NCBI RefSeq assembly: GCF_030811475.1
Contig: NZ_JAUSQV010000001.1
Location: forward strand, 992,001 to 1,056,000
DNA from: Nakamurella flavida
GTDB lineage: Bacteria > Actinomycetota > Actinomycetes > Mycobacteriales > Nakamurellaceae
Direction: 5' to 3'
Length of the DNA stretch: 64,000 nt
The notes under the pieces: model-generated
What the model was told of the DNA's origin: nothing
What the model saw: only the letters and a program-made list of their open reading frames with translations
The model's database searches: none
Program-made: the position numbers and the translations under genes
Part shown: piece after piece, positions 34,186 through 51,596 of the stretch
How the letters are laid out: each line of letters opens with the position of its first letter
Numbering within the stretch: position 1 is the stretch's first letter

Positions 34186-34977
34186 TCAGCGCACCAGGGT
34201 GCGCCCGCCGTCGACCACCAGCACCTGGCCGGTGACGAAGGACGCCTCGTCACTGGCCAGGTAGTGGAATGCCGCGGCGATGTCGGCGGGTTCCCCGACT
34301 CGGCGCACCGGCTGCTGCCCCGCGGTCCGGTCGATCCCGGCCGCGCCGAGCGAGTTGACCGCGTCCAGGGTCTGGGGGGTGCGGATGATCCCGGGCGCCA
34401 CCGCGTTCACGGTGATCCCGTCCGGTCCCAGTTCGGCGGCCAGACTGCGGACCAGCCCACTGACCCCGGCCTTGGCCGCCGCGTAGTGCGCGTGGTCCAC
34501 CCAGGCCTCGTGGTTGCCGACCGTGGACGTGGTGGCCAGCAACCGTCCGCCACCCTGCGCCCGCATCGGGGTGAGGGCCGAGCGGAACAGCCGCCAGACC
34601 CCGGCCAGGTCGATGTCCAGGGTCTGGGTGAACTGCGCCTCGGTCATCTGCAGCAGCGGCGCGGTGCGGGCGATGGCGGCGTTGGCCACGGCCACGTCGA
34701 CGCGGCCGAAGGCCCGCGCCGCCGTGTCGACGAGTTCCTGCACCGACGCGGGGTCCTGGACGTCGACGGGCACGACGCGCAGCGCGTCCCGGTCCGCCCC
34801 CCGGGCCACCGCCTCGTCGAGCACGGCGGAGACGTCGTGGCCGTCCGGCGGATGGTGGCCGACGACGACGGCCGCACCGGCCGCGGCCAGGCGCACTGCG
34901 GTCGCCGCCCCGATGCCGGACGCGGCTCCGGTGATCACCGCGACCCGTCCGGCCAGGTCGAACGTTCCCGGGCTCAT
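34186..34977 (-). CDS. SDR-family oxidoreductase, last gene of the nucleoside-importer operon
   Basis: A 263-residue classical short-chain dehydrogenase. Motifs are VITGAASGIGAATA, VPVDVQDPASV, VANAAIARTAP, TSTVGNH (catalytic Ser or Thr region), the YAAAK active site, and NAVAPGIIRTP. The ending FVTGQVLVVDGGRT is typical of 3-oxoacyl reductase-like and sugar dehydrogenases. The ATG overlaps the stop of the preceding SDR gene (ATGA). In this operon it may oxidise a sugar or sugar acid released by the nucleoside hydrolase. That role is inferred from context. Confidence 0.88.
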   Translation of the reverse strand: MSPGTFDLAGRVAVITGAASGIGAATAVRLAAAGAAVVVGHHPPDGHDVSAVLDEAVARGADRDALRVVPVDVQDPASVQELVDTAARAFGRVDVAVANAAIARTAPLLQMTEAQFTQTLDIDLAGVWRLFRSALTPMRAQGGGRLLATTSTVGNHEAWVDHAHYAAAKAGVSGLVRSLAAELGPDGITVNAVAPGIIRTPQTLDAVNSLGAAGIDRTAGQQPVRRVGEPADIAAAFHYLASDEASFVTGQVLVVDGGRTLVR

Positions 34978-35756
34978 GACGCCGTCCAGCCGCCGTCGAC
35001 GCTGAGCACCGCGCCGGAGACGAACGTGCAGTCGTCGCCGGCGAGGAACAGCACGGACCCGACGACGTCGGTCACCGCACCCAGTCGCGGAAAGGGTGTG
35101 CGCCGCAACGAATACGCGGTGGCGGTGTCCACGGTCCCGTCCCGCAGGTAGTCGGCCTCCCCCGGGTGGTCGCCGGTGATGATCCGCCCCGGGGCCACCG
35201 CGTTGGCGACGATGCCGGCACCCGCGTAGTCCACGGCGATCGACCGGGTCAGGGCGATGACCCCGGCCTTGGCCACGGTGTAGCCGAGGGCGGCCGGCGG
35301 GGCGGTGATGCCCAGCTGGGAGGTGGTGTTCACGATGCGCCCCCGCACGCCGGCGACCGCTTCCTGGCCGACCATCGCCCCGACGAAGGCGCGACTCATG
35401 AGGAACTGCGTCCGCAGGTTGACATCCAGGTACCAGTCCCATTCGGTGTCGGTGGTGTCCAGCAGGGTGGAGCCGCCGAAGTGCCCGGCGTTGTTGACCA
35501 GGACGTCCACCCGACCGGTCACCGCGGTCGCCGCCGACAGCACCGACGCGACCGCGACGGGATCGGTCAGATCGGCCAGCACGGGGCGGACCCGGTCGGC
35601 GTGGTCACGCACGGCCGGGGCGTCCAGCAGGGCCTCGTCCCGATCGGTGGCCACCACATGCGCTCCCTCCTGGGCGAAACGGCCGACCAGGGCGCGTCCG
35701 ATGCCCCCGGCCGCGCCGGAGACCACCACCACCCGGTCGGTGAACCTCCCTGTCAC
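34974..35756 (-). CDS. SDR-family oxidoreductase, sixth gene of the importer operon
   Basis: A 260-residue short-chain dehydrogenase. Motifs are VVSGAAGGIGRALV, ATDRDEALLD (an Asp that selects NAD), VLVNNAGHFGG, NTTSQLGI with the catalytic Ser, the YTVAK active site, and FVSGAVLSVDGG at the end. The GTG start overlaps the nucleoside hydrolase stop (GTGA) and the stop overlaps the next SDR. The preference for NAD suggests oxidation. It is only distantly similar to the SDR that follows, so the two probably catalyse successive steps. Confidence 0.88.
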   Translation of the reverse strand: MTGRFTDRVVVVSGAAGGIGRALVGRFAQEGAHVVATDRDEALLDAPAVRDHADRVRPVLADLTDPVAVASVLSAATAVTGRVDVLVNNAGHFGGSTLLDTTDTEWDWYLDVNLRTQFLMSRAFVGAMVGQEAVAGVRGRIVNTTSQLGITAPPAALGYTVAKAGVIALTRSIAVDYAGAGIVANAVAPGRIITGDHPGEADYLRDGTVDTATAYSLRRTPFPRLGAVTDVVGSVLFLAGDDCTFVSGAVLSVDGGWTAS

Positions 35757-36772
35757 GACCGCGTCGCCGGGTGCAGCAGGCGGTCGACCAGCAGATCCGG
35801 GAAGCGGCCGTCGGTCTCCAGCACGACCGTGCAGTTGCCGGGCGCCAGATCGGTGAACCCTCGATAGCGGGCCCGGGTGTCGCAGATGGTCGCGCCGCGG
35901 CCGGGGCCGTCCGTGGTGTCGACGACGACGTCGATGGTCGGCGCGGAGAGCGGGACGACGTCACCGGTCAACACCCCGGCGGCCAGGGCGTCGTGACAGG
36001 GCGAGCTGCGCTTCCCGAAGGACTCCCGACCGTAGGCGCCCATGTAGAAGTCCGCGGCCGCGGCGACGAACGCCGCCGCCGGCGACCCGGCGGCCAGGGT
36101 GAGCCGGTGCTCGTCCGTCAGCACTTCGCGCATGGTGACGTCCAGCGGCACCAGGGTCGTCGGCCACGCCGCGGTGAGCACCTGCTGGGCCGCCTCCGGG
36201 TCGTGGATGACGTTGGCCTCCGCAGCCGGTGACTGGTTCCCGGGGGCATCCGCGGCGCCGCCCATGGCCACCACGTCCACCACCCGGGCGGTGATGTCCC
36301 GGATCTCGTCCAGGGCGTGGGCCAGATTGGTCAGCGGCGCCAGGGCCAGGATGCGCAGGCGGCCGGCGTACTCGGCCGACAGTCGGTCGATGAGCTGCAC
36401 GGCGGTGGCGTCGACGGGCCGACCGTGGATGTCCGCCGGGAGCCCGGTGTCCCCCAGCCCGTCCTCGCCGTGCACGTGGGTGGCCAGGTAGGTCACCTCG
36501 CCGACCAGCGGCTGCTCGGCGCCCACTGCGACCGGGATGTCGTGCCGCCCGGCCAGTTCCAGCACGCGCAGGGTGTTCTGGGCGCAGCGCGCGGCGGTGT
36601 TGTTGCCGAAGACGGTGGTCACCCCGACCACCTCGACGTCCGGGTGCGCCAGCAGGTACAGCAGCGCCATCGCGTCGTCGATCCCGGTGTCGCAGTCGAC
36701 CAGCACCGGGGTGCGATCGGGTCCGGACGCGGCGGCGGTCGAGCTGGTCTGGGGGGCGGGGGGAACGGACAT
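35753..36772 (-). CDS. Nucleoside hydrolase (IUNH family)
   Basis: A 339-residue hydrolase. The calcium-binding signature is LVDCDTGIDDAMALLYLL with Asp26, Asp28, Asp32 and Asp33 of the DTGxDD motif. Further family marks are TTVFGNNTAARCAQNTL, ALAPLTNLA and a late His in SSPCHDALAAG. Known members split the N-glycosidic bond of ribonucleosides to base plus ribose in the cytosol. The ATG lies one base after the upstream permease stop. Its place directly after a nucleoside-type ABC importer strongly suggests it acts on the imported compound. Base specificity cannot be read. Confidence 0.93.
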   Translation of the reverse strand: MSVPPAPQTSSTAAASGPDRTPVLVDCDTGIDDAMALLYLLAHPDVEVVGVTTVFGNNTAARCAQNTLRVLELAGRHDIPVAVGAEQPLVGEVTYLATHVHGEDGLGDTGLPADIHGRPVDATAVQLIDRLSAEYAGRLRILALAPLTNLAHALDEIRDITARVVDVVAMGGAADAPGNQSPAAEANVIHDPEAAQQVLTAAWPTTLVPLDVTMREVLTDEHRLTLAAGSPAAAFVAAAADFYMGAYGRESFGKRSSPCHDALAAGVLTGDVVPLSAPTIDVVVDTTDGPGRGATICDTRARYRGFTDLAPGNCTVVLETDGRFPDLLVDRLLHPATRS

Positions 36773-36773
36773 G

Positions 36774-37718
36774 TCAGCCCTTCGGGATGATCGCGGGGAC
36801 GTACTGGGTGATCGAGACGTCGTAGCGCCGACGTCGGCTCTCCCGGACGGCCTGGACGGCGAGCGCGACCACGGTGGCCACGTACGGGAGAGCATGGACG
36901 ATCTGCTGCAGACCCAGATCGGTGCCCTGCAGCCGGACGGCCACCGAGGTGGCCGCGGCGAACAGCAGGGACGCGCCGATCGTGCCCCACGGGGTGGCCC
37001 GCCCGAAGACGACCGCGGCGAAGGCGATGAACCCCAGACCACCGGTGAGCTGCGAGTTGAAGGAGGCGACCGAGCTGATCGACAGGTAGGCCCCGCCGAT
37101 GCCGGCCAGCGCACCGCTGATGAGCAGCGCCGCCACCCGGATCTGCACGGGCTTGACACCCACGGCCAGGGCCGCCTCGTCGGACTCCCCGACCGCCTTG
37201 ACGTGCAGGCCGAACCGGGTGCGCTGCAGCACGATCGAAGCTGCCACCGTGACCAGGACGGTGACCCAGACCAGGGCGCTCTGGTTCTGCAGGGCGGGCC
37301 CGATGACCGGGATGTCGGCCAGGAACCCCAGCGAGGGCCGCGGGATGAGGGTGGTGCCGGTCGGGGCGTACGTGCCGGTGGACCCCAACACGCCCTGCAC
37401 GACGAGCAGGCTGGCCCCGACGGCCAACAGGTTGGCCGCGATACCGGCGATGATGAGGTCGCAGCCGAGCCCGTAGACCGCCGCGGACAGCACCCCCGCC
37501 CACAACGCACCGGCCACCATGCCGGCGACCACGCCCACCCACGGGTTGCCGACCGCGGTGCCCACGGCCAGGGCCGCGAGGGCGGCGACCAGCATGCAGC
37601 CGTCCAACGCGATGTTGGACGCGCGGGCCCGTTCGGCGAACATGCCGCCCATGGCCGTGGCCAGGATCGGCACCAGACTGGTCAGCAGGATGGCCAGGAA
37701 TCCGGAGACACCGCTCAT
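36774..37718 (-). CDS. ABC transporter permease, BMP/nucleoside type (NupQ-like)
   Basis: A 314-residue membrane protein with about nine helices. The stretch AERARASNIALDGCMLVAALAALAVG, read over two segments, and GVKPVQIRVAALLISGALAGIGGAYLS are typical of the second permease in BmpA-NupOPQ type importers. The ATG at 37718 is one base after the first permease stop. It pairs with the 359-residue permease upstream to form the channel for a nucleoside-like substrate. Confidence 0.9.
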   Translation of the reverse strand: MSGVSGFLAILLTSLVPILATAMGGMFAERARASNIALDGCMLVAALAALAVGTAVGNPWVGVVAGMVAGALWAGVLSAAVYGLGCDLIIAGIAANLLAVGASLLVVQGVLGSTGTYAPTGTTLIPRPSLGFLADIPVIGPALQNQSALVWVTVLVTVAASIVLQRTRFGLHVKAVGESDEAALAVGVKPVQIRVAALLISGALAGIGGAYLSISSVASFNSQLTGGLGFIAFAAVVFGRATPWGTIGASLLFAAATSVAVRLQGTDLGLQQIVHALPYVATVVALAVQAVRESRRRRYDVSITQYVPAIIPKG

Positions 37719-37719
37719 G

Positions 37720-38799
37720 TCAGGACCTCCCACCGATCCGCTGGCTGGTGACGAGCAGGACCAGGACGCCCTGCAGCACGAAGACCAGGGCGAACGGCAC
37801 GTTCGAGGCCGACTGCATGGAGGTCGCTCCCGTCATGAGCATCGCGTAGAGGAAGGCGGCCAGGACGACCCCGCCGGGCCGGAGCCGCCCGATCAGGGCC
37901 ACCGTGATACCCAGGAAGCCGTACTGCGGCGAGAAGCCCGAGACGTAGGCGTGGGTGATGCCGAGGACGGCGACCCCGCCGCCCAGACCGGCGAGCGCGC
38001 CGCTGCTCAGCAGTGAGGTGAGCAGGTAGCGGGTGGACCGGATGCCCAGGTACTCCGCGAAAGCCGGCTGCACGCCGGCGATCTCCATCCGCCGTCCCGT
38101 GCGGGTGCGGTCGAACACCAGCCAGGCACCCGCCGCGACGAGCAGGGCCAGGATGACGCCGACGTTGGCCGGTGAGGGCACGAGCAGGCGGGTCAACCAG
38201 AGGTCGGTGGGCAGCGGCGGCGTCTCCACCGCCCCCGAGGTCTTGTCCCGGAAGAACCGGTTGACCAGGAACAGCGCGAGATCCGCGGCGATGTAGTTGA
38301 ACATCAGCGTGGTCAGGATCTCGTTGGTGCCGAAGCGGATCCGCAGCCAGGCGGGCAGGGCCACCCACGCGGCACCGGCGAGGGCGGCGCAGACGAGCGC
38401 GACGAGCTGGGCGAGGATCCCCGGGCCGGGGACCGCCACCACCACCACGGCGGCGACCAGGCCACCGAGGACCAGCTGCCCCTCGGTGCCGATGTTGAAG
38501 GCGCCGGCCCGGAACGACACGGTCGCGGCGAGCGCCGTGAAGATCAGCACCGTGCCGATGGCGATCATGTTGCCGAAGGCGTACCGGGTCTTGAACGTCC
38601 CGGTCAGGAACGAGGAGAACGCGGTCGCCGGGTCGTCGGCCACCAGCAGGATGACCCCGAAGCAGACGACCAGGCCGAGGACGACGGCCAGCACCGACTG
38701 GCGCAGGCCCAGCGGCACCACGCGGCGGGCCCCGGCCCGCAGCCAGCCGACCCGAGGGGAGCTCTCGGTGGGGTCGGGGGCGGGGATCTGCGTCGTCAC
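37720..38799 (-). CDS. ABC transporter permease, BMP/nucleoside type (NupP-like)
   Basis: A 359-residue membrane protein. After a cytosolic Pro-rich N-terminus it has about nine helices, with AATVSFRAGAFNIGTEGQ, LRIRFGTNEILTTLMFNYIA and EYLGIRSTRYLLTSLLSSGALAGLGG as recognisable permease segments (the EAA-like loop). The GTG at 38799 overlaps the ATPase stop (GTGA). It is the first of the two permeases of the importer. Confidence 0.92.
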   Translation of the reverse strand: MTTQIPAPDPTESSPRVGWLRAGARRVVPLGLRQSVLAVVLGLVVCFGVILLVADDPATAFSSFLTGTFKTRYAFGNMIAIGTVLIFTALAATVSFRAGAFNIGTEGQLVLGGLVAAVVVVAVPGPGILAQLVALVCAALAGAAWVALPAWLRIRFGTNEILTTLMFNYIAADLALFLVNRFFRDKTSGAVETPPLPTDLWLTRLLVPSPANVGVILALLVAAGAWLVFDRTRTGRRMEIAGVQPAFAEYLGIRSTRYLLTSLLSSGALAGLGGGVAVLGITHAYVSGFSPQYGFLGITVALIGRLRPGGVVLAAFLYAMLMTGATSMQSASNVPFALVFVLQGVLVLLVTSQRIGGRS

Positions 38800-40337
38800 G
38801 AGGAGCTTCCTTCCAGCATGGCCCGGCCGACCTCGGCCTCGGTGGGCCGACGGTCGACGAACTCGGCGACGATCCGGCCCCGGGACATCACCAGGACCCG
38901 GTCGGCGATGGCGACGACCTCCTCGATCTCGCTGGAGACCAGCAGCACGGCGCCACCGGAGTCGCGGCGGGCCACCAGTTCCCGGCGGACGAAGGCGGCC
39001 GCGGCGATGTCCAGTCCGCGGGTCGGCTCGGCGCACACCACCAGGTCCGGGTCGCGCGAGAACTCCCGGGCCAGCACCGTCTTCTGGGCGTTGCCGCCGG
39101 ACAGCCGACGCATCAACTGGCGCGGGGACGCGGCCCGGACGTCGAAGGCGGTCATCAGCCCGGCGGCGAGCCGGCGGATGCGGGGCGCCGACAGCAGCCG
39201 GCCGCCGACCTCCGGTGATCCCAGGTGGCCGGCGGTGATGTTGGCCTCCACGGACAGGTTGCCGGCCATGCCCCGCCCGATGCGGTCCTCCGGGACGTGC
39301 GCCATCCCGGCCGCCCGCGCCGCCGACGGCCCGGCCCCGGTCACGTCGACCGGACCGACCAGGACGCGACCCGCGGCCGGGGTGCGCAGCCCGGTGATGG
39401 CCTCCACCAGCTCGGTCTGCCCGTTGCCGGCGATGCCCAGCACGCCCACGATCTCGCCCGCCCGCACGGTCAGGTCGACGCCGTCGACCACCGTCTTGCC
39501 GCGGCCGCTGACCAGCTCGATGCCCTCCACCCGCAGTCGGACGTCGCCGGGTGTTCCGAACGGCACCTCGCTGTCCGCCGGAGGGGCGTCGCCGGTGATC
39601 AGGCCGGCCAGCTCGGCGTTCGTCACGGCGTGGATCGGCTCGTGGGCGACCCGGCGACCCCGGCGCAGCACCGTCACGGTGTCGGCCACCTCGCGCACCT
39701 CGCGGAGGTGGTGGCTGATCAGCACCACGGCCAGTCCGTCGGCCGCGAAGCCCCGGACGACCTGGAAGAAGCGCTCCGTCTCGGCCGGGGTCAGGACGGC
39801 GGTCGGTTCGTCCAGCACGAGGACGGACACGTCCTTGGCCAGGGCCCGGAGGATCTCCACCCGCTGCTGGGCGCCCACCGACAGGCTGCGCACCAGGTCG
39901 TCGGGACGGACGTCCAGGCCGTAGCGTTCGGCCAGTTCGCCGACAACCCGGTGGCTGTGCCGACGGTCCAGGAACGGACCGTGGTGCGGTTCGGATCCCA
40001 GGAAGACGTTGTCGGCGACGGAGAGCGAGGGCACCAGCTTGAAGTGCTGGTGGACCATGCCGATGCCCAGGGCCAGGGCCCGCCGGGGAGAGGTAACGTG
40101 CACGGTCTCCCCCCGGATCAGGATGTCCCCCTGGTCCGGGCGGGTCAGCCCGAAGAGGCAGTTCATCAGGGTGGACTTGCCCGCCCCGTTCTCCCCGAGC
40201 AGCGCGTGGATCTCCCCGGCCCGGACCTCCAGGTCCACGTCGTCCACGGCGACCAGCGAGCCGAAGGTCTTCCGGATCCCCCGCATGACGAGCAGGGGTG
40301 GGTCACCCTGGCGGGCGACGGGGCGGGCAGTGGTCAC
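38796..40337 (-). CDS. ABC transporter ATP-binding protein with two nucleotide-binding domains (NupO/RbsA-like)
   Basis: A 513-residue duplicated ATPase. The first half has Walker A LLGENGAGKST (47-57), Q-loop VHQHF, signature LSVGAQQRVEI and Walker B VLVLDEPTA. The second half has a degenerate Walker A (LGIAGNGQTELVEA, without the Lys), signature LSGGNAQKTVLARE and an Glu-for-Asp change near CAEPTRGLD, as is usual for RbsA/NupO proteins. It powers the importer. The GTG at 40337 follows GAGGACC; a later ATG at the start of the ATPase domain is less likely. A hairpin in front of it may lower its expression relative to the binding protein. Confidence 0.93.
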   Translation of the reverse strand: MTTARPVARQGDPPLLVMRGIRKTFGSLVAVDDVDLEVRAGEIHALLGENGAGKSTLMNCLFGLTRPDQGDILIRGETVHVTSPRRALALGIGMVHQHFKLVPSLSVADNVFLGSEPHHGPFLDRRHSHRVVGELAERYGLDVRPDDLVRSLSVGAQQRVEILRALAKDVSVLVLDEPTAVLTPAETERFFQVVRGFAADGLAVVLISHHLREVREVADTVTVLRRGRRVAHEPIHAVTNAELAGLITGDAPPADSEVPFGTPGDVRLRVEGIELVSGRGKTVVDGVDLTVRAGEIVGVLGIAGNGQTELVEAITGLRTPAAGRVLVGPVDVTGAGPSAARAAGMAHVPEDRIGRGMAGNLSVEANITAGHLGSPEVGGRLLSAPRIRRLAAGLMTAFDVRAASPRQLMRRLSGGNAQKTVLAREFSRDPDLVVCAEPTRGLDIAAAAFVRRELVARRDSGGAVLLVSSEIEEVVAIADRVLVMSRGRIVAEFVDRRPTEAEVGRAMLEGSSS

Positions 40338-40370
40338 GACGGTCCTCGGCGGTGGTGTCGGTGGTGATCG

Positions 40371-40400
40371 ACGGTGGCGCCCCGGACGGGACGCCACCGT
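40371..40400 (-). promoter_or_regulatory. Intercistronic hairpin between bmpA and the ATPase gene
   Basis: ACGGTGGCG (40371-40379) and CGCCACCGT (40392-40400) form a perfect 9-bp stem with an inner CCC/GGG pairing. It lies in the 88-nt gap after the lipoprotein stop at 40426. Importer operons often need far more binding protein than ATPase, and such a hairpin can end part of the transcripts or protect the bmpA message. Confidence 0.6.
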
Positions 40401-40425
40401 GCGCGGGGTCGGAGAACGCGGGGGA

Positions 40426-41541
40426 TCAGAGAGCGGTGTCGACGGTGATGGTGCCGTCGACCACCTTCTGGCTCAGCGCCTCGACCTGGGCCTGGATGTC
40501 GGCCGGCACCAGGGCGTCGTTGAACGCGATACCCACGCCGTCGTTGGCGATGTTGCCGACGATCGTCGTGCCCATCTCCAGGGTCCCGGCCTGGAAGGCC
40601 TGGATGCCGGAGTAGACGGTGTTGCCCACGGCCTTGATCGCGCTGGCCGGGGTGGACTCCGGGTGCAGCTGGTTCTGGTCGGAGTCGGTACCCAGCGCGT
40701 AGCGGCCGTTGTCCGCACCCGCCTGCAGCACACCGAGCCCGGCGGCCCCGGCCACCTGGTAGACCACGTCGGACCCGTCGCCGTACATCGCCTTGGTCAG
40801 ATCGTAGGCACCCTGGGCACTCTCGAAGTCGCCGACGAAGCGCAGATCCACCGTGATGGACGGGTCGATCGACTTGGCACCCTGCTCGTAGCCGACAGCG
40901 AAGTCCCGGATGACCGGGATGTCCATCCCGCCGACCAGGCCGATCTTCTTGCTGCCGGTGGCCCGGGGGAACGTGTCCGGGTTGGTGGTGATCAGCGCGG
41001 CCAGGACACCGACGAGGAACGCGCCCTCGTTCTGGGCGTAGGAGATGCCGGTGGTGTTCGGGCCCACGGACGGGCTGTCGAAGATCAGGTACTTCTGGTC
41101 GGGGAACTGCGCGGCGACCTTCTCCAGGGTGGAGGCCATGACGGTTCCACCGGTGACGATGAGCCCGCTCTCCCCGGTGGCGGACGCCTCGGTCAGATTG
41201 CGCTCCCAGGCCGGGGCGTCGTCGGCACCGGCTTCGATGACCTTGACCGACACCCCGAGATCGGCGGCGGCACGCTGCAGGCCGTCGTTGGCCGAGTCCA
41301 TGAAGCTCTGATCACCGAGCTGGCCACTGAGCGGGGCGATGATGTTCAACGCCTCGGCCGGCACCGACGGAGCGGCCGACGCGGTCGCGGCGGAGCTCGC
41401 GGACGAACCGCCGGCGGCGGAGGTCGCGGCCGATGCGGCCGACGAGCTCGTCGCGGTGCCGGACGCGCCTCCGCAGGCACTGAGCAGCAGGGTCGTGGTG
41501 GCAGTCAGCGCGATGGCGGCGGACCAGGTGGATCTCGTCAT
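40426..41541 (-). CDS. BMP-family lipoprotein, substrate-binding protein of nucleoside ABC importer
   Basis: A 371-residue lipoprotein. The signal peptide ends in a lipobox LLSAC with the lipidated Cys23, followed by a Ser/Ala-rich tether to about residue 60. The binding domain begins LNIIAPLSGQLGDQSFMDSANDG, and includes LIVTGGTVMA, YLIFDSPSVG, GFLVG-like AFLVGVLAALIT and GTDSDQNQLHPE, typical of the BmpA/Med/PnrA family that binds purine nucleosides. The ATG follows GAGGAG with a 7-nt spacer. It begins the importer part of the operon, 44 nt after the alpha/beta hydrolase gene. Confidence 0.93.
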   Translation of the reverse strand: MTRSTWSAAIALTATTTLLLSACGGASGTATSSSAASAATSAAGGSSASSAATASAAPSVPAEALNIIAPLSGQLGDQSFMDSANDGLQRAAADLGVSVKVIEAGADDAPAWERNLTEASATGESGLIVTGGTVMASTLEKVAAQFPDQKYLIFDSPSVGPNTTGISYAQNEGAFLVGVLAALITTNPDTFPRATGSKKIGLVGGMDIPVIRDFAVGYEQGAKSIDPSITVDLRFVGDFESAQGAYDLTKAMYGDGSDVVYQVAGAAGLGVLQAGADNGRYALGTDSDQNQLHPESTPASAIKAVGNTVYSGIQAFQAGTLEMGTTIVGNIANDGVGIAFNDALVPADIQAQVEALSQKVVDGTITVDTAL

Positions 41542-41585
41542 GGGGATCTCCTCGGGGCGGGACGGGGCGGGTGGCGGGGCGGCGG

Positions 41586-42416
41586 TCAGGCCACGGGAGC
41601 GTGGCCGGCCAGGAAGTCGGTGATGAGCCGGGCGAGGACAGGCGCGTCCTCGATGTGCAGGTAGTGCCGGAGCCCGGGACGGATGACCAGGTCCGCGCCG
41701 GGGATGCGGGCGGCCAGGGCGCGGGACATCGCCGGGGTCGAGCCGGCATCGTCCTCGCCGGTGACCACCAGGGTGGGGACCGTGATGGCGTCCGCCCGGT
41801 CGAGAAGATCGGTGGTGGCCAGGATCTCGTAGGCCGACCCGTAGGAATGGTGGTCGACCCCGGCCACCACCGCACACTCCGCCGCGACCAGGTCGGGACG
41901 GTCATGGCGGAACGCCTCGGTGAACCACCGTTCGACGCTGGCCCGGGCCGATTCGGCCGGGTCCGTCGTCCGGATGACCTGCAGGCGGTCCAGCGCCCGG
42001 GTGCGCTGGGCCTCGTCGCGACCCCCGATGGAGTTCAGGAGCACCAGCGCCGTGGTGCGCTCGGGGTGATCGACCGCGACCGCCTGGGCCACCACGGCGC
42101 CGAGCGAGAAGCCGATGACGACCGCGGCCCCGACACCCAGTTCGTCCAGCAGACGGATGTGATCGTCCACCTGGTCCTGCAGGGAGTAGCTCTCCCCCAC
42201 GGGTTCGGAGTCCCCGTGCCCGCGGTAGTCGGCCGCGATGTACCGGCGGTCGGCCGGCAGCAGCGGGAGCAGCGTCGCCCAGGTCGACGCCGAGCTCCCG
42301 ACGCCGTGCAGCAGCACCACCGGCGGGTCACCGACCCGCCCCACGTCGACGTAGGCGAGGTGGGGCCGGGAGGTCGTCTGCGCCCGACGGAGGGGCACCT
42401 GAAGGTCTTCATGCAT
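41586..42416 (-). CDS. Alpha/beta hydrolase, first gene of the leftward operon
   Basis: A 276-residue hydrolase of the 3-oxoadipate enol-lactonase/haloperoxidase type. The oxyanion loop is LLHGVGSSAS, the nucleophile is Ser104 in VIGFSLGAVV, an acid is in VTGEDDAGS and the His in GLRHYLHIED. The segment AADYRGHGDSEP is characteristic. The ATG at 42416 is chosen over a GTG 27 nt upstream because a TTGACA/TACCGT promoter ends 10 nt before it. It may open a lactone or cleave an ester or amide of the imported compound. It is divergent from the GntR gene. Confidence 0.88.
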   Translation of the reverse strand: MHEDLQVPLRRAQTTSRPHLAYVDVGRVGDPPVVLLHGVGSSASTWATLLPLLPADRRYIAADYRGHGDSEPVGESYSLQDQVDDHIRLLDELGVGAAVVIGFSLGAVVAQAVAVDHPERTTALVLLNSIGGRDEAQRTRALDRLQVIRTTDPAESARASVERWFTEAFRHDRPDLVAAECAVVAGVDHHSYGSAYEILATTDLLDRADAITVPTLVVTGEDDAGSTPAMSRALAARIPGADLVIRPGLRHYLHIEDAPVLARLITDFLAGHAPVA

Positions 42417-42426
42417 GGCAGACAGG

Positions 42427-42456
42427 ACGGTAGGGACGGCCACCGATGCATGTCAA
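42427..42456 (-). promoter_or_regulatory. Promoter of the leftward operon
   Basis: On the minus strand TTGACA (42456-42451) is followed after 18 nt by TACCGT (42432-42427). The -35 matches the consensus perfectly. The ATG at 42416 is 10 nt beyond the -10, so the leader would be only a few bases. The -35 abuts the palindrome at 42456-42466. Confidence 0.6.
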
Positions 42457-42466
42457 GACTCAGTCT
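42456..42466. promoter_or_regulatory. Candidate GntR operator AGACT-C-AGTCT
   Basis: A perfect 5+1+5 palindrome in the 185-nt spacer between the divergent operons. It overlaps the first base of the leftward -35 hexamer, where a bound repressor would block polymerase. It is the only clear dyad in the spacer. Assignment to the adjacent GntR protein is inference. Confidence 0.5.
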
Positions 42467-42565
42467 GGTTTCTCGTGTTACAGCTCCGTGACGAGGAAAT
42501 GCACCCACCTGGAGCAGTATTCAGTCGTCCGTCCGGCGGGTCTGTGCCATGCCTGAGGCGCTGTC

Positions 42566-42594
42566 TTGACGGTCCCGACCCTCACTCCTAGGCT
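42566..42594 (+). promoter_or_regulatory. Leaderless promoter of the gntR operon
   Basis: TTGACG (42566-42571), a 17-nt spacer, and TAGGCT (42589-42594) form a good promoter. The ATG at 42602 follows after exactly 7 nt, so transcription would begin at the start codon itself. No Shine-Dalgarno sequence is present. This supports the chosen GntR start. Confidence 0.7.
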
Positions 42595-42601
42595 CTGTGC
42601 C

Positions 42602-43285
42602 ATGCAAGAGTCGAGATCCAGTCGGCAGTCCACCGTGGTGGACGGCATCCGCCGGCGGATCATCTCCGGAGAGATGAGCAGCGGCACCGCGCTGTCGGAG
42701 GTGTCGCTGGCTCAGGACTTCGGGGTGAGCCGGACGCCGGTACGCGAGGCCCTCAAGCAGCTCCAGGCCGAGGGGCTGGTCGAGGTCCGGCCGCGGGTCG
42801 GCACCTTCGTCAGCACCCCCACGCGCACCGAGATCATCGAGCTGTTCCAGGTCAAGGAGGTGCTGGAGGGTGCCGCCGCCCGGTTCCTGGCCGCCCGGGG
42901 GGAGGTCGCCGAGCTGGATGCGCTGCGGCACAACGTCGCCCGCTCCGATCTGGCCCTGGAGCGGGACGATGTCGAGACGTACACCGAACTGGTGGCCGAG
43001 TTCCACGACCTGATCGTGCTGGGGGCGGGCAACGCCAAACTGCGCGCGCACCACACCACCTTGATGAACCAGCTCGCCTACCCGCGACTGATCAGCACCT
43101 CCCTGTCGACCCCCGGACGGTTCGCCGAGAGCGAGAACGAGCACCGTCGGTTGCTCGAGGTCATCGAGAGCCGGGACGGCGCCTCCGCCGAACGCCTGAT
43201 GCGCAACCACGTCCGGGCCAGCCAGGAGGCCCTGGTCGAGTCCATGTTCGCCGATCACGACGAGCGCCCCGGGAGCGATGCGTGA
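42602..43285 (+). CDS. GntR-family transcriptional regulator, FCD (FadR) subgroup
   Basis: A 227-residue regulator. The winged HTH covers about residues 8-75 (VVDGIRRRIISGEMSSG, SLAQDFGVSRTPVREALKQL, AEGLVEVRPRVGTFVS). The C-terminal FCD domain is helical, with metal-type His residues in EFHDLIVLGAGN and ENEHRRLLEVIESRD and HVRAS. Such regulators usually respond to organic acids of the pathway they control. The stop overlaps the first DUF1185 gene (GTGA). Its position between two divergent catabolic operons makes it the likely repressor of both. Confidence 0.92.
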   Translation: MQESRSSRQSTVVDGIRRRIISGEMSSGTALSEVSLAQDFGVSRTPVREALKQLQAEGLVEVRPRVGTFVSTPTRTEIIELFQVKEVLEGAAARFLAARGEVAELDALRHNVARSDLALERDDVETYTELVAEFHDLIVLGAGNAKLRAHHTTLMNQLAYPRLISTSLSTPGRFAESENEHRRLLEVIESRDGASAERLMRNHVRASQEALVESMFADHDERPGSDA

Positions 43286-43872
43286 GTCTGCAGATCCGCC
43301 GGGTCCACGTGATGAGGCAGGCCGTGCACACCGAGGCCGGCCGGGTGCTGGACGCCGATCTGCAGCAGGTCGTGGCGGCGGCGGTGCTCACCGACCCGTG
43401 GTCCGGGCGGGGCGACGTGCGCGACCTGTCCTCGCCGGTGCGGCAGGGGTGCCCGCCGCTGGCCCGACTGCTGATGGATCGGGCCCTGGCCGCGCTGCCG
43501 GCGGGCGCCACCGCCGCCGCGGTGGGCAAGGCGGTGGCCGTGGGCACCGGGGTGGAGCTGGAACACGGGGCTGCGCTCATCCACAATCCCTACTTCTCGG
43601 ACGTGGTGCGGGACAGGGTGGACGGCACCTCGGTGCTGCCGTCCACCGAGACCCGCGGGCCGGAGGGTGTCCTGCTCACCGTCCCCCTGGTCCACCGCAC
43701 GCACGCCACCGACCGCGCCCACTACCAGGGAGTGCAGGTCTGCGTCCCGGACGCCCCGCACCCCGACGAGATCGTCGTCCTGGTCGCGGTGTCCACCGGA
43801 ACCCGGCCCGATCCGCGCATCGGCGACCGACGCACCGACGCACCCTTCGATCCCACCGCCTGGAGGCCGTGA
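43282..43872 (+). CDS. DUF1185 (AA_synth) family protein, first paralog
   Basis: A 196-residue cytosolic protein. The family motifs are [31 protein letters not shown] and [15 protein letters not shown]. The Glu-His-Gly and the following His in ALIH look like an active or binding site and are shared with the next protein. The family is labelled amino acid synthesis in databases, but I know of no established reaction. The GTG overlaps the gntR stop. Together with its neighbour it may form a heteromer that acts on the pathway intermediate. Confidence 0.85.
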
Positions 43873-44420
43873 TGCTGATCCGCAAGACCGTGACCATGGT
43901 GGAGGAGACCCTGCGAGAGGGCGGGGTGAGCGTGGATCCGCCGGCCCGGGTCGCCGTGGTCGCCGTGGTCGTCGCGAACCCGTGGGCCGGCCGAGGTCAC
44001 GTGGCCGATCTGGGCCCGGTGGCCGACGAGATCGCCCCGGCGATAGGCGCACACCTGGCCCCGCTGGTCATCGCTGCGCTCGGGGCCCCGGCCGAGGCGT
44101 ACGGCAAGGCGGCGATCGTCGGGACGTCCGGGGAGATCGAGCACGGCTCCGCGTTGATCCACACCCTGGCCTTCGGGAACCATCTGCGCGAACCACTGGC
44201 CGCGCTCACCCTGCTGCCGGCGGTGGAGAAGCGGGCGGCGGCGGGGACCACCTTCGACATCCCCCTCAAGCACGTCATGGACGCGACCATCCGGTCCCAC
44301 CACCAGAGCATCGAGATGCGCATCCCCGACGCCCCCGGGCCGGACGAGATCGTCGTCGCCCTGGCCCTGGCCGCCCAGGGCCGTCCGCTGCAACGGCTCC
44401 CGGCCTTCCGCCGGGCCTGA
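43872..44420 (+). CDS. DUF1185 (AA_synth) family protein, second paralog
   Basis: A 182-residue paralog of the protein encoded just upstream. Shared positions are [37 protein letters not shown] and [18 protein letters not shown]. Only about a third of the remaining residues agree, so the duplication is old. The ATG overlaps the previous stop by one base (TGATG). Retention of both copies side by side, with the same core motif, argues for two non-identical subunits or two successive steps. Confidence 0.85.
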
Positions 44421-44476
44421 CCCCATCCCCGCACCACCGGCCCGCAGCGCGGGCACCACACCCAGGAGGACGCGCA

Positions 44477-45403
44477 ATGCCCAAGGACATCAAGGTCAGT
44501 TTCGGCGTGGACGTCGACGCCGTCTCCGGTTGGCTGGGTTCCTACGGCGGAGAGGACAGTCTGCAGGACATCCAGCGCGGCCTGTTCGCCGGTGACGTCG
44601 GCCTGCCCCGGCTGGTCAAGCTCTTCGACCGGTACGACCTCAAGGCCACCTTCTTCGCCCCCGGCCATTCCATCGAGACCTTCCCCCGCAGCATGGAGCT
44701 CGTCGTGGCCGGCGGCCACGAGGTGGGCGCCCACGGGTACTCCCACGAGAACCCCCGTGACATGTCCCCCCAGCAGGAGGAGGACGTGCTGAACCGCTCC
44801 ATCGAGCTCATCCGGCAGCTCACCGGGCGCGGTCCGAAGGGGTACATCGCACCCTGGGGCGAGATGACCACGATCCAGGCGGACCTGTTGCTGCGCAACG
44901 GGATCTCCTACGACCGCACCCAGGTGCTGCACGACTTCCAGCCGTTCTACGCCCGCACCGGGGACAGCTGGACGAAGATCGACTACGCGAAGACCGCAGC
45001 CGAGTGGATGCATCCCCTCGTCCGCGGGACCGAGATCGACCTGGTCAGCCTGGCGTTCAACTGGTACCTCGACGACCTGCCGCCGATGATGTTCGTCAAG
45101 GGCAGCCCGAACAGCTACGGCTTCGCCAACCCGCGGGACATCGAGACCCTGTGGCGCGACCAGTTCGACTGGGTGTACCGCGAGTACGACTACGCCACCT
45201 TCCCCATCTGCCTGCATCCGGACGTCGCCGGCCGGCCGCAGGTGCTCCTCATGATCGAGCGGCTCATCGAGCACATGCTGGGCCACGAGGGAGTCAGCAT
45301 CACCACCTGCGAGTCCATCGTCGACGACTTCCGACGCCGGTACCCGTTCGCGACCGACTCCCGCTACCCGTTCGACCGCGAGTTCGGCGCCGGGACCCGG
45401 TGA
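44477..45403 (+). CDS. CE4/polysaccharide-deacetylase-fold protein, PuuE allantoinase or cyclic-imide-hydrolase-like
   Basis: A 308-residue cytosolic protein without signal peptide, so not a cell-wall deacetylase. The NodB-fold marks are [11 protein letters not shown] (Asp12, Asp14), [15 protein letters not shown], and [12 protein letters not shown] (His86, His90), then KGYIAPWGE. The [15 protein letters not shown] region and [15 protein letters not shown] match the subgroup that contains cyclic imide hydrolase and PuuE allantoinase, enzymes that open cyclic amide rings. ATG follows AGGAGGA. Its stop overlaps the asparaginase gene. Ring opening of a cyclic imide, hydantoin or ureide is the most likely reaction. 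Confidence 0.85.
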
Positions 45404-46410
45404 CCCCGCAGGCCGACCCGTCCGGGCTGCCGCGCATCGCGGTGCTCTCGCTCGGCGGGACGATCACCACTCCCGCCGAACGTCCCGACGGCGCGCGGCC
45501 ACCGTTGACGGCCGCCGATCTGGTGTCCGCGATCCCCGAGCTCGCGACCGTGGCCGACGTCCGGCCCGTGGTCGCCGGAGCCCGGATGTCGGCCGATCTC
45601 CGCGCCACCGACATCGCGGAGGTGGCTCGGTGGATCGACGGGGCCCGGCGCGACGGCATCGACGGCGTGGTCGTCACCCAGGGCACCGACACCCTGGAGG
45701 AGTCGGCCTACCTGCTGGACCTGCTGTCGCCCGGGGACACCCCCGTCGTCGTGACCGGCGCCATGCGCAATCCCGGACGACCGGGGAGCGACGGCCAGGC
45801 AAACCTGCTGGCCGCGGTCCGCACCGCGGCGCACCCCGGTGCGGTGGGACTGGGCGTGCTCGTCGTCCTCGACGACGTCGTCCACCTGGCGCGCGCGGTG
45901 CGCAAGACCCACACGACGGCCACCGGGGCGTTCGTGTCCACGCCGGGGCCGATCGGATCCGTCGTGGAGGACCGGGTGCGGCTCGGCCTGCGCCCGACCC
46001 GGCGTTCGCCGGTGTACGTCTGGCCCGAGCAGGTCCGCCCGGCCGCGGTCCCGCTCGTCCAGCACTGCTTCGACGACGACGACCGCCTGCTGCGGTCGGT
46101 GGGCGACTCGGGCGCGGACGGTCTCGTGCTCGCAGTACTGGGCGCCGGTCACGTGGGGGCCAGACTGCTGCCCGTCATCGACGACCTGGTGGCCAGGATG
46201 CCGGTCGTGATGGCCTCCCGGACCGGGTCGGGCGACCTCAACCGGATCTCGGCGGGCTACCCCGGCTCCGAGCGGGATCTGCTCGGGAGGGGCGTCGTCT
46301 CGGCCGGGGCGCTCGACCCCCTCAAGGCCCGCATCCTGCTGATGTCCCATCTCACCGCAGGAGCGCCACTCCCGACCTTGGCGGCCGCCTACGAGCAGGC
46401 GTCGGGCTGA
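45400..46410 (+). CDS. Asparaginase / asparaginase-like amidohydrolase
   Basis: A 336-residue enzyme of the bacterial L-asparaginase (type I/II) family. The nucleophile Thr21 is in [10 protein letters not shown], the second catalytic set is TQGTDTLEE (Thr96, Asp97), and [19 protein letters not shown] and [18 protein letters not shown] are conserved. It lacks a signal peptide. The GTG overlaps the CE4 gene stop. In this locus it could deamidate a half-amide produced by ring opening rather than asparagine; the sequence alone does not decide. Confidence 0.92.
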
Positions 46411-46434: not shown

Positions 46435-47496
46435 TCAGGCGGGGACGGCCACCGCCACGAGGCGGTGGACCAGGCGCATCTTGTCCAGCACGTGCGGGGC
46501 CAGCACGAACGGGTACAGATCCGAGTGGCCCATCGACCGGTTGATCATGTTCAGCGACCAGGCCAGCGGCAGCCACAGCTCGATGATCCGGTCGAACCCG
46601 GCGTCACCGGCGAGCGGGTGGTCGGCGGTGGCACCGGCCGGGGCGATGCCGAAAGCGGCTGCGGTGTCCAGGGTGTCGCGGATGTGCAGGTAGTGCGCGA
46701 AGGTCTCGGCCCAGTCCTCCGCCGGGTGCATCGTGGCGTAGGACGAGACGTAGTCCTGCTCCCAGCCGGCCGGGGCGCCCTGCGAGTAGTGCCGGTCCAG
46801 GGCGGCCTGGTAGTCGGTGTCCGGGTCGCCGAAGAGCCTCTCGAACTCGCTCCGGGCCGGGCCCGTCTCGGCCAGCACGAAGAAGTAGTAGTGGCCGGTC
46901 TCGTGGCGGAAGTGTCCGAGCAGGGTCCGGTACGGCTCGTCCATCGACACCCGCAACTGCTCGCGGTGCACGTCGTCACCCTCGGCCAGATCCAGGGTGA
47001 TGACCCCGTCGGCGTGACCGGTGATCACCGGTTCGTGCTCGCTGGACAACAGGTCGAAGACCAGACCCCGGTCCGGGTCGGCGATCCGGTCGGTGATGGG
47101 CAGGCCGAGCTCGACCAACTCGACGACCAGCCGCCGCTTGGCCGCCTCGGCCGCGGCGAACTGGCTGTGGGCCTGGAACGACGCCGAGGCGCCCGGGCGG
47201 GTCCGGGTCAGCGAGCAGGACCGGCACAGCGGACCGGGGCCGTCCGCGGCGACGAGCCAGTTGCAGCCGGCGATGTGCACGTTGGCGCACCGCCGCGACT
47301 CGGGCAGCGGGGGCGCGGCCACGGCCAGCGGGTCCTGCGAGACGGCGGGGTCGACACTGGCCGTGGACCCGTCGGGCCCGACGATGAGGAACGACCGGGA
47401 AGCCAGGTCGAACCCGATGTCGTGGGCACAGCTCAGGCAGCGGGAGTTCTCGAAAGCCAACCGTTGGCCGCAGTTCGGACACGCGAAGTCGCGCAC
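46435..47496 (-). CDS. Zinc-ribbon and HExxH metallopeptidase-like protein (DUF2248 family)
   Basis: A 353-residue protein. The N-terminus is a zinc ribbon (Cys6, Cys9, Cys20, Cys23) and a second Cys set follows (Cys70, Cys78, Cys91, Cys94). The metallopeptidase motif is HETGHYYF (His198, Glu199, His202) with a later Glu in DWAETFAHYLHIRDTLDTA. No signal peptide is seen, so it is cytosolic. Members are annotated as putative zinc-binding metallopeptidase and occur next to circularly permuted ATP-grasp genes. The start is GTG at 47496; a TAGCGT hexamer 65 nt upstream may be its promoter. Confidence 0.88.
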   Translation of the reverse strand: MRDFACPNCGQRLAFENSRCLSCAHDIGFDLASRSFLIVGPDGSTASVDPAVSQDPLAVAAPPLPESRRCANVHIAGCNWLVAADGPGPLCRSCSLTRTRPGASASFQAHSQFAAAEAAKRRLVVELVELGLPITDRIADPDRGLVFDLLSSEHEPVITGHADGVITLDLAEGDDVHREQLRVSMDEPYRTLLGHFRHETGHYYFFVLAETGPARSEFERLFGDPDTDYQAALDRHYSQGAPAGWEQDYVSSYATMHPAEDWAETFAHYLHIRDTLDTAAAFGIAPAGATADHPLAGDAGFDRIIELWLPLAWSLNMINRSMGHSDLYPFVLAPHVLDKMRLVHRLVAVAVPA

Positions 47497-47654
47497 GCTG
47501 GTCTCGCTCTCGATACGCCCGGGGAGTCGGGTGACCGGACGGACCCGAGTGGCGGGCCTGACGCTACCGGCGCGGGGGCGGCGATCGTCCCCGGTCAGGC
47601 CCGATCCCCCGCAGCGGGACGGCGAACGCGACCATTCTCACGTCGATCGGCCGG

Positions 47655-48539
47655 CTACTCCGGAGCGACGTCCACCGAGACGGTCATCTCGCTCTTCTCG
47701 GCGTGGGTGAACAACACGCCCCGCAGGGGGGAGACATCGCCGTAGTCGCGCCCCCAGGCCACCGTGGTGTACCGGTCGCCGGCGCGGTGGTCGTTGGTGG
47801 GGTCGAAGGCCAGCCAGCTCCCGTCCGGTCCCCGCACCGCCGCCCAGGCGTGGCTCGCGTCCACGCCGACCATCCGTTCCCGGCCCGGGGGCGGGGTGGT
47901 GGCCAGATATCCGGAGACGTACCGACCGGCCAGGCCGACCGATCGGAGACAGGCGACCGCGAGATGGGCGAAGTCCTGGCACACCCCGGCCCGGCTCGCC
48001 AGCAGGTCGGGCACGTTGCTGGTGACCGACGAGGCCCGGGGGTCGTACCGGAAGTCGGAGTGGATCCGGTGGGTCAACTCGTCGACCGCCTCCCCGAGCG
48101 GCCGACCCGGCAGGAAGGTGGCCCCGGCGTACCGCCGTACCGCGTCGTCCACCTCGACGAGGGGGGAATCCAGGCAGTACTCGACGGCCAGCGGATCCAC
48201 CCCCGCCGGGCGGGCGGCCTCCCAGGGGGCGGACTCCACCGCCGGGTCCCGGACCGGGTCGCTCACCTCGACGGTGGACGTCCCGGTGACCTCGAGCCGG
48301 GTGTACGCACTGGTCACCGAGAAGTACGTGGCCCGGTTGCCGTGCACGTCCACCCCGGTGGAGTGGTCCGACGGATCCGGGTCCACCGAGACCCGGTGGT
48401 CCAGGCATCGTTGGTGCGGCAGCGTCCGCGGGGTGAGGAACGCCCGCCCGAAGGACACGGAGACGTCGTCGGAGTACCGGTAGGTCGTGCGGTGCTGGAT
48501 CCGGTAGCGGCGCACCGGTGCCGACTCGACGGCGGTCAT
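47655..48539 (-). CDS. Transglutaminase-like protein of the ATP-grasp/alpha-E cluster
   Basis: A 294-residue protein. The N-terminal 130 residues are the bacterial transglutaminase-like N domain (RYRIQHRTTYRYSDDVSVSFG, TLPHQRC). The catalytic triad is complete: Cys187 in SRAGVCQDFAHL, His230 in VDASHAWAAV, Asp247 in LAFDPTND. It would cut or join isopeptide or peptide bonds. The ATG overlaps the stop of the ATP-grasp gene (ATGA), so the two are made together. Peptidase and transferase activities cannot be told apart from sequence. Confidence 0.92.
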   Translation of the reverse strand: MTAVESAPVRRYRIQHRTTYRYSDDVSVSFGRAFLTPRTLPHQRCLDHRVSVDPDPSDHSTGVDVHGNRATYFSVTSAYTRLEVTGTSTVEVSDPVRDPAVESAPWEAARPAGVDPLAVEYCLDSPLVEVDDAVRRYAGATFLPGRPLGEAVDELTHRIHSDFRYDPRASSVTSNVPDLLASRAGVCQDFAHLAVACLRSVGLAGRYVSGYLATTPPPGRERMVGVDASHAWAAVRGPDGSWLAFDPTNDHRAGDRYTTVAWGRDYGDVSPLRGVLFTHAEKSEMTVSVDVAPE

Positions 48540-51271: not shown

Positions 51272-51596
51272 GCCGATCCCGCCGGCCGCCGCGGCGAACC
51301 GGCACAGGACGACATCCGCGCATTGTCGCCCACCGGGACCCGAAACCCGAGCCCCGGGGGCGGAGCACACCCGGTGGGACCACGCGGGCCGCCGATGCCT
51401 CTGGATCGTGACCGTCGGTCACCGCCGTTCCTCCCGGCCGGTGGTCCCCAGGAGCGGCACCGGTCCGGCTGCTGGACCGCCCCCCTTGCCCACCGGCGGC
51501 TGGCGTGGGAATGTCCGCATCGGTACCGGCGGCCGCGGGACGGCCGGGTGCAACCCCGACGTTCCCGGGCCGCGGACGGCCGGAAGGGGTCAGGAC
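51272..51596. other. 325-nt divergent intergenic region without genes
   Basis: It separates the ATP-grasp operon from the GAF-ANTAR gene. The plus-strand side ends with GGAAGGGGTCAGGAC before the ATG at 51597, a good ribosome site. I see no gene, clear dyad or consensus promoter. It must hold both promoters. Confidence 0.6.

Follow-up and report, generated by a model that had tools for sequence, protein, structure and literature searches.

A divergent locus of Nakamurella flavida as a possible catabolic regulon rewired around a trigonelline-type core

What compound, or compounds, would be handled by a divergent locus that joins a BMP-type importer and a nucleoside hydrolase to a putative cyclic-amide ring opener, and do its two arms belong together? 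The question is raised by positions 34186..46410 of a 64-kb window of the Nakamurella flavida genome (NZ_JAUSQV010000001.1, 992,001-1,056,000; the window is the whole stretch analysed, and all positions are window positions). We propose, with a probability of about 0.45, that the locus is a rewired catabolic regulon, consisting of a switch and core of the type found in trigonelline (tgn) clusters, in which importer/nucleoside hydrolase and CE4/asparaginase/short-chain dehydrogenase (SDR) modules replace the genes of oxidative ring cleavage. The GntR regulator, its operator, two DUF1185 proteins and a TgnD-like hydrolase apparently derive from actinobacterial trigonelline-type clusters. In place of the ring cleaver, reductase and aldehyde dehydrogenase stand the BMP importer, the nucleoside hydrolase and the CE4/asparaginase/SDR module. 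The features are as follows.

34186..34977, minus strand: SDR2, short-chain dehydrogenase (PF13561, E 2.3e-61), kin of the first SDR of CE4-MFS-SDR-SDR clusters (47-50% identical)
34974..35756, minus strand: SDR1, short-chain dehydrogenase (PF13561), 32-38% identical to the second SDR of CE4 clusters
35753..36772, minus strand: IUNH nucleoside hydrolase, nearest the pyrimidine-type RihA (PF01156, E 4.9e-78)
36774..37718 (alternative start GTG 37733), minus strand: ABC permease B (BPD_transp_2, PF02653)
37720..38799, minus strand: ABC permease A (BPD_transp_2, PF02653)
38796..40397, minus strand: double ABC ATPase (PF00005, two stretches)
40426..41541, minus strand: BMP/PnrA-like substrate-binding lipoprotein (PF02608, E 1.9e-52)
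41586..42416, minus strand: alpha/beta hydrolase, TgnD-like (PF00561)
42408..42423, plus strand: predicted GntR operator over the hydrolase start codon (19.7 bits, weight matrix)
42542..42557, minus strand: predicted GntR operator, middle and weakest (15.7 bits, weight matrix)
42595..42610, minus strand: predicted GntR operator over the GntR start codon, best in the window (23.6 bits, weight matrix)
42602..43285, plus strand: GntR/FCD regulator, kin of tgn-type regulators (PF00392, PF07729)
43282..43872, plus strand: DUFa, first DUF1185/AA_synth protein (PF06684, E 3.3e-47)
43872..44420 (start 43869 possible), plus strand: DUFb, second DUF1185/AA_synth protein (PF06684, E 9.7e-57)
44477..45403, plus strand: CE4 family protein of the HpPgdA/PuuE type, putative cyclic-amide ring opener (PF01522; PDB 3qbu, E 3.3e-130, residues 1-290)
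45400..46410, plus strand: asparaginase, putative half-amidase (PF00710 and PF17763)

The locus holds 13 genes, one more than an earlier note on this DNA had counted. Eight run leftwards from the divergent gap (alpha/beta hydrolase, BMP lipoprotein, double ATPase, two permeases, nucleoside hydrolase, SDR1 and SDR2), and GntR/FCD runs rightwards with four others (DUFa, DUFb, CE4 and asparaginase). All the gene families named in that note are present, every named gene having a Pfam match above the curated cut-off, and a gene finder based on GC content by codon position recovered all 13 frames and stops, some with different starts. The claim that nearly all junctions are tight stands for eight of the 11 same-strand junctions (with the starts listed), which overlap by 1-4 nt or leave 1 nt, CE4 and asparaginase overlapping by 4 nt; it fails for ATPase/BMP (at least 28 nt, depending on the start), BMP/hydrolase (44 nt) and DUFb/CE4 (56 nt). 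The divergent gap measures 158 bases if the hydrolase starts at GTG 42443 and 185 if it starts at ATG 42416, which the operator position and the promoter-like spacing make the more likely start.

The trigonelline-type core and its operator

Trigonelline breakdown is reported to start with ring opening by TgnA and TgnB (PMC8269262). The cluster annotated in Acinetobacter sp. PK01 has the order GntR / DUF1185, hydrolase, tgnA, tgnB, tgnC, cytosine permease, hypothetical protein, SSADH; its hydrolase, which the record names alpha/beta hydrolase, we take to be TgnD. A similar order is found on a Mesorhizobium plasmid, and a tandem DUF1185 pair on an Arthrobacter plasmid. The window locus resembles the Acinetobacter type in the families and order of GntR, DUF1185 and alpha/beta hydrolase, including a DUF1185 protein adjoining GntR, and has its operator in common with the actinobacterial clusters of this type. 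It differs in being without TgnA, TgnB, TgnC, SSADH and permease, and in having a BMP importer, nucleoside hydrolase, SDRs, CE4, asparaginase and a second DUF1185 protein.

For comparison, relatives of DUFb were collected from genome contigs (379 pattern matches, 329 relatives). The best 80 of the 329 and, from twenty loci of the organism's own class, the ten with a tandem pair (together L038-L047 and L058-L137) gave 87 distinct loci after removal of three duplicates, extending up to about 20 kb (eight are shorter than 15 kb) and scanned by tblastn at E<=1e-8. DUFa was matched in 82 of them, the hydrolase in 85, with 82 matches at most 400 nt from DUFb, and GntR in 81. Further genes are an aldehyde dehydrogenase (83 loci), a flavin reductase (79), a SnoaL-like protein (75) and a BCCT transporter (41).

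A luciferase-like monooxygenase lies within 7 kb in 82 of the 87 loci. In 54 it is at least 50% identical to the TgnB-like protein of L044, itself 54% identical over the whole length to the annotated tgnB product (oxygenase component of the flavin-dependent trigonelline monooxygenase) of Acinetobacter sp. PK01; in the other 28 it is less alike. By analogy with their tgn relatives, the actinobacterial clusters presumably degrade trigonelline, and those with the other monooxygenase may have a different substrate. The presence of two monooxygenase kinds beside the same DUF1185 pair, hydrolase and aldehyde dehydrogenase suggests at least two substrates for this kind of cluster. Five loci have no such monooxygenase within 7 kb (L039, L073 on a short contig, L096, L112 and L133). 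Two of these, L112 and L133, both in the operator training set described below, keep the core and have operator sites before GntR; the swapping of outer modules is therefore not unique to the window. Judged by the starts of the sequences rather than a family scan, an ABC system that looks amino-acid-type stands beside the core in Planosporangium (L133:8446-14738); in Pseudoclavibacter (L112:4470-12798) there are another ABC system and an alcohol-dehydrogenase-like protein, also read from sequence starts, and an aldehyde dehydrogenase.

The DUFb protein of the window is 63-72% identical to those of the comparison loci (45% in L039), GntR 48-64% to the best GntR of each locus, DUFa 37-54% to its counterparts and the hydrolase 32-45% to the hydrolases neighbouring DUFb. 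In a tree drawn from a midpoint root, GntR falls on a long branch within a 57-row clade of regulators from tgn-type loci (support 100/98), apart from the member from its own genus. With the L044 hydrolase as query, the window hydrolase ranks first in its genome at 124 bits, the runner-up reaching 54.7 (a one-way best match), and the motif TGxxDxGSTPxMS is common to it and the aligned actinobacterial tgn-type hydrolases. It is a probable ortholog of the hydrolase of these clusters, TgnD-like, which speaks against its earlier assignment as a sugar lactonase. Its best PDB match is a 3-oxoadipate enol-lactonase (97.6 bits), and it matches PcaD enol-lactonase models below their cut-offs. The vitamin B6 alpha-(N-acetylaminomethylene)succinate hydrolase (PDB 3kxp), also an alpha/beta hydrolase, matches it at 51.5 bits; we do not claim membership of that family because the enol-lactonase scores closer. 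The enzyme of 3kxp splits an acyl-aminomethylene succinate.

The two DUF1185 proteins differ from each other in that DUFa departs at four near-invariant positions (N36, G87, G102 and S142, DUFb numbering) which are kept in the other three DUFa proteins of alignment A1; DUFa is perhaps a non-catalytic partner of DUFb. We had considered a split ring opener resembling cyanuric acid hydrolase for the pair, and dropped it as a primary reading because DUF1185 accompanies oxidative ring cleavers, which should need no such enzyme. For DUF1185, to which the earlier note gave no firm function, there is one lead: the homolog TgnF is said to stimulate succinate semialdehyde oxidation (PMC7913881).

Words of eight letters common to the promoter regions of the loci led to a near-palindrome, from which a 16-bp weight matrix was refined with 90 training loci from other genomes, counting the three duplicates and leaving out the window. 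Sites of at least 12 bits are present in 86 of these 90 training clusters, at 0.351 per kb inside and 0.031 outside. The three best sites of the window, at 42595 (23.6 bits), 42408 (19.7) and 42542 (15.7), all lie in the divergent region, and the fourth scores 10.7. The first covers the GntR start codon and the second the hydrolase ATG 42416. Of 60 first-order Markov copies of the window, three attained 15.7 and none 19.7; their best scores averaged 11.4 and peaked at 18.5. Since predicted operators sit on the start codons of both arms, the arms probably form one regulon, in agreement with the co-regulation expected in the earlier note. All scores in the 16 CE4 loci discussed below were under 12. 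In 13 DUF1185 loci that are non-tandem or non-actinobacterial the best scores were 16.3 (L200), 16.2 (L199), 14.1 (L050) and 12.9 bits (L049); these sites stand beside neither a regulator nor a DUF1185 start and we take them as chance, helped by a G+C content lower than the model background.

Inverted GTCTTGAC boxes at 42452-42459 and 42563-42570 stand at like distances from the two start codons and may be -35 elements of leaderless transcripts. A strict promoter scan found no site and did not report them, so the pair is only suggestive.

TgnB is absent from the locus, and the best match to the TgnB-like monooxygenase in the N. flavida genome is 31% identical (64.7 bits), not an ortholog. Neither a TgnA flavin reductase nor a TgnC-type aldehyde dehydrogenase was found by Pfam in the locus, the rest of the genome not having been searched for them. 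With these three genes absent, the locus is not a tgn cluster by membership.

The importer, the nucleoside hydrolase and the CE4 module

The complete gene set was found in none of the loci examined outside the window; the locus is thus a mosaic of separately recurring parts and not a unit conserved among relatives, which the earlier note would have taken as refuting its reading. DUF1185 (PF06684) was matched in six of 61 genomes (own and relatives) and in 27 of 394 class genomes including its own. In the same genus (17 genomes including its own), one other genome has a tandem DUF1185 pair, with trigonelline-type genes (G012), and one a single distant DUF1185 protein, 34% identical to DUFb (G003). 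BMP, both permeases, CE4 and asparaginase are matched in none of the 87 DUFb loci, and the nucleoside hydrolase in one (37%), within 20 kb around the tgn-type cluster of an Actinophytocola metagenome-assembled genome (L093). The literature searches found no paper describing this gene set, in line with the earlier statement that no described pathway has it.

The lipoprotein, double ATPase and two permeases make a complete BMP/PnrA importer set, as noted earlier, in the same order as in annotated plasmid examples; the window set differs from these in being followed by a nucleoside hydrolase. The importer has no close relative in the genomes and plasmids searched: at E<=1e-40 the lipoprotein is matched in one of 61 genomes, its own, and among the 52 plasmid records that BMP matched, the one ranked first shows 39.2% identity (over 82%). 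Neighbours of plasmid relatives were uninformative in the two regions examined. Relatives in the PDB include 2fqw (tmpC) and 6pi5 (an atrazine-related binding protein). The nucleoside hydrolase scores 263.2 bits against PF01156 (cut-off 34.2), has the Asp-rich N-terminal motif and aligns to YbeK. It is RihA-like, as had been proposed; it scores 185.8 bits against the RihA model, below the cut-off of 433, and 161 bits against YbeK/RihA in the PDB. At E<=1e-60 it is matched in eight of 197 class genomes including its own, the others being 45-48% identical. One plasmid relative stands between a GntR and an MFS gene.

The CE4 protein is matched at E<=1e-40 in 21 of 394 class genomes including its own, at 60% identity or more in 17 including its own; four matches of about 35% were left out, and 16 other loci remained for comparison. 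In 12 of these 16 actinobacterial loci an asparaginase lies no more than about 1.5 kb from CE4 (tblastn; partial in L169); the gene finder, which missed genes in L166 and L167, places it directly beside CE4 in ten. That CE4 and asparaginase belong together, as suggested earlier, is borne out by this recurrent pairing. Near CE4, BMP or nucleoside hydrolase was matched in none of the 16.

Three loci (L164, L165 and L168) have the order asparaginase, CE4, transporter, SDR, SDR, the transporter being MFS by Pfam in L168 and alike in the others. The same order, with MFS, is found on a plasmid of Rhodococcus erythropolis R138; a plasmid of Pantoea sp. At-9b has CE4, MFS, SDR, SDR, with no asparaginase annotated. 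In these clusters (the two plasmids, L165 and L168) CE4 is 58-63% identical to that of the window, and an SDR is kin to SDR2. They differ from the window in having an MFS transporter instead of the BMP ABC system, with no DUF1185 protein of the window type, nucleoside hydrolase or BMP matched. The first SDR of L165 finds SDR2 as the best of 41 places in the N. flavida genome (219.9 against 144.5 bits, one-way). As the kin of SDR2 belong to CE4-MFS-SDR-SDR clusters where nucleoside genes were not seen, the SDRs probably do not serve sugar oxidation, contrary to the earlier proposal. The asparaginase of the window is 44-47% identical to CE4-adjoining asparaginases of Paracoccus and Rubrobacter.

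A cytosine/purine/allantoin permease (PF02133) adjoins CE4 in at least three of the 16 loci (L163, L166 and L170; the scan covered suspected neighbours only), as would suit a nucleobase-like ring. In five proteobacterial CE4 regions there is a GTP-binding protein in all five (once named CobW), an asparaginase beside CE4 in two and a dihydropyrimidinase in two. These neighbourhoods are consistent with nitrogen heterocycles as the target of the enzyme, and name no substrate. The link between CE4 and cyclic imide hydrolase is an assumption taken from the earlier note; the literature searches found no paper on a cyclic imide hydrolase of the CE4 type. The DxD and HGYSHENP stretches, which we take to be metal-binding, are kept in the alignment to 3qbu. 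CE4 scores 70.9 bits against the PuuE allantoinase model TIGR03212 (cut-off 424.6) and the asparaginase 180.1 against the type II model TIGR00520 (cut-off 314.3), both below threshold; the Pfam asparaginase domains are present. The Rut pathway and cyanuric acid hydrolase/barbiturase resemble the locus in way of working only, through cyclic-amide ring opening and an alpha/beta hydrolase step: the hydrolase scores 75.0 bits against the RutD model (cut-off 238.5), and Pfam (13 of 13 proteins) and NCBIfam (10 of 13) listed no further match to Rut or AtzD/barbiturase proteins.

Several other genes were seen beside CE4 elsewhere. In five of seven annotated plasmid regions (L138, L139, L178, L179 and L181) the gene after CE4 codes for a small hypothetical protein and the next one for a GTP-binding protein (CobW family in L178), possibly a metal chaperone for CE4; in L182 the pair comes after MFS and two SDRs, and in L180 it was not seen. 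Beside the asparaginase-CE4-transporter-SDR-SDR genes of L165 (3861-6598) are a 117-amino-acid protein with no Pfam match, LamB/YcsF and biotin carboxylase, a set reminiscent of 5-oxoprolinase-type systems. An actinobacterial CE4 lacking asparaginase is adjoined by an S-Me-THD (PF06032) protein (L162:10451-11269), a family associated with hydantoinase genes, which is another hint of ring-amide chemistry near this CE4 type.

The surroundings of the window locus add little. It is flanked by a GH15 protein on one side and a Peptidase_Mx protein on the other; adjoining the end of the asparaginase gene, leftward genes at 46435-51370 code for Peptidase_Mx, transglutaminase and circularly permuted ATP-grasp/Alpha-E proteins. 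No link of these to the locus was seen. There is no tRNA inside the locus, and Rfam at gathering score gave no match in the whole window, so that neither a riboswitch nor other RNA control was seen. The longest repeat pairs listed in the locus have low identity, as expected for GC-rich coding sequence.

A possible route, its alternatives and its meaning

Gene content, operator sites and module kinship are computed; every reaction, the order of the steps and the inducer are what we infer from here on. The BMP system would import a nucleoside-like N-glycoside, from which the nucleoside hydrolase would free an N-heterocycle. One or both SDRs may adjust a hydroxyl or oxo group, either of the heterocycle itself or of its side chain; CE4 would open the ring by hydrolysing a cyclic amide or imide bond, and the asparaginase would take off the resulting terminal amide. 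The acyl-aminomethylene (enamide) acid left over would then be split by the TgnD-like hydrolase, with the help of the DUF1185 pair, in the direction of a semialdehyde; the locus apparently acts downstream of ring opening like a tgn cluster. GntR would bind both start-codon operators and be released by a ring-opened intermediate.

In its full form this would be an oxygen-independent route for N-glycosylated N-heterocycles, passing through nucleoside hydrolase, hydrolytic opening by CE4 and deamidation into an acyl-aminomethylene dicarboxylate trunk otherwise fed by oxidative trigonelline cleavage; that whole sequence of steps is unlikely to be right as written. Candidate substrates would be 5-substituted tRNA uridines such as 5-carbamoylmethyl- or 5-carboxymethyluridine. 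Here the carboxamide would be the target of the asparaginase and the uracil imide that of CE4; the product, 2-(ureidomethylene)succinate, would be the ureido counterpart of the intermediate in trigonelline breakdown. A second candidate may be pyridone ribosides derived from NAD.

Several observations count against a rewired regulon. The full set was seen in no other locus, so comparison does not tie importer, nucleoside hydrolase and CE4 to one compound, and around the seven nearest nucleoside hydrolase genes elsewhere (1.5 kb each side) no other window gene was matched. SDR1 is distant from the second SDR of the CE4 clusters (just 32-38%), and the asparaginase shares only 34% identity with its counterparts in L165 and R. 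erythropolis, whose clusters hold the kin of SDR2; both weigh against one inherited CE4/SDR module. The closest solved structure to CE4, 3qbu, is named peptidoglycan deacetylase. Within the core, the hydrolase is only 27% identical to that of the Acinetobacter tgn cluster, DUFa may be degenerate in view of its four missing near-invariant residues, and the DUFb tree has long branches and gives no clear placement of the window protein. No aldehyde dehydrogenase of any kind lies in the locus. The highest four operator scores of L199 and L200, both proteobacterial tgn clusters, lie outside the GntR-DUF1185 gap. The operator seed was written after the k-mers and the window had been viewed, which makes the test somewhat less independent, though the window is outside the training set.

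The best-surviving alternative holds that two separate pathways, nucleoside uptake and salvage on the left and imide or amide breakdown on the right, share the regulator and divergent promoter by positional accident. Each half is a coherent gene set, CE4 travels with asparaginase in 12 of the 16 loci and was seen with BMP or nucleoside hydrolase in none of them, and the whole set was not found elsewhere. However, predicted operators stand at both start codons; the hydrolase of the tgn-type core is in the left arm and the rest of the core in the right, and SDR2, whose kin travel with CE4, ends the left arm. The positions of these two genes indicate modules interleaved across both arms, and we think separate pathways rather unlikely.

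The scheme of the earlier note, with the SDRs as sugar oxidisers, the alpha/beta hydrolase as a sugar lactonase and a base that undergoes ring opening and deamidation, is in keeping with the Pfam content and draws on the enol-lactonase matches of the hydrolase. It is quite improbable, given a hydrolase of tgn type and SDR2 kin in clusters where no sugar or nucleoside gene was seen. A trigonelline (N-methylnicotinate) pathway with its monooxygenase encoded elsewhere in the genome would explain why regulator, operator, DUF1185 pair and hydrolase are all of tgn type, and is nevertheless very improbable: the 31% match noted above is no ortholog, neither a BCCT transporter nor a cytosine permease is in the locus, and a BMP importer and nucleoside hydrolase would not be needed for trigonelline. 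With no TgnB in the genome, the trigonelline pathway as such was rejected. That CE4 is purely envelope-related, beside an ordinary nucleoside salvage operon, is scarcely credible despite the name of 3qbu, since its gene overlaps the asparaginase gene and its relatives adjoin asparaginase, hydantoinase-type genes and nucleobase permeases.

If the locus is a rewired regulon, it would show a catabolic switch and core reused for new substrates, a clear case of module swapping under a conserved switch. The regulator-operator pair would predict which clusters of undefined role share one regulon. A further catabolic route would be added for modified nucleosides or related compounds, none having been found in the literature searches. 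DUF1185 (PF06684) would gain a biochemical setting common to oxidative and hydrolytic ring opening, in which its function could be tested.

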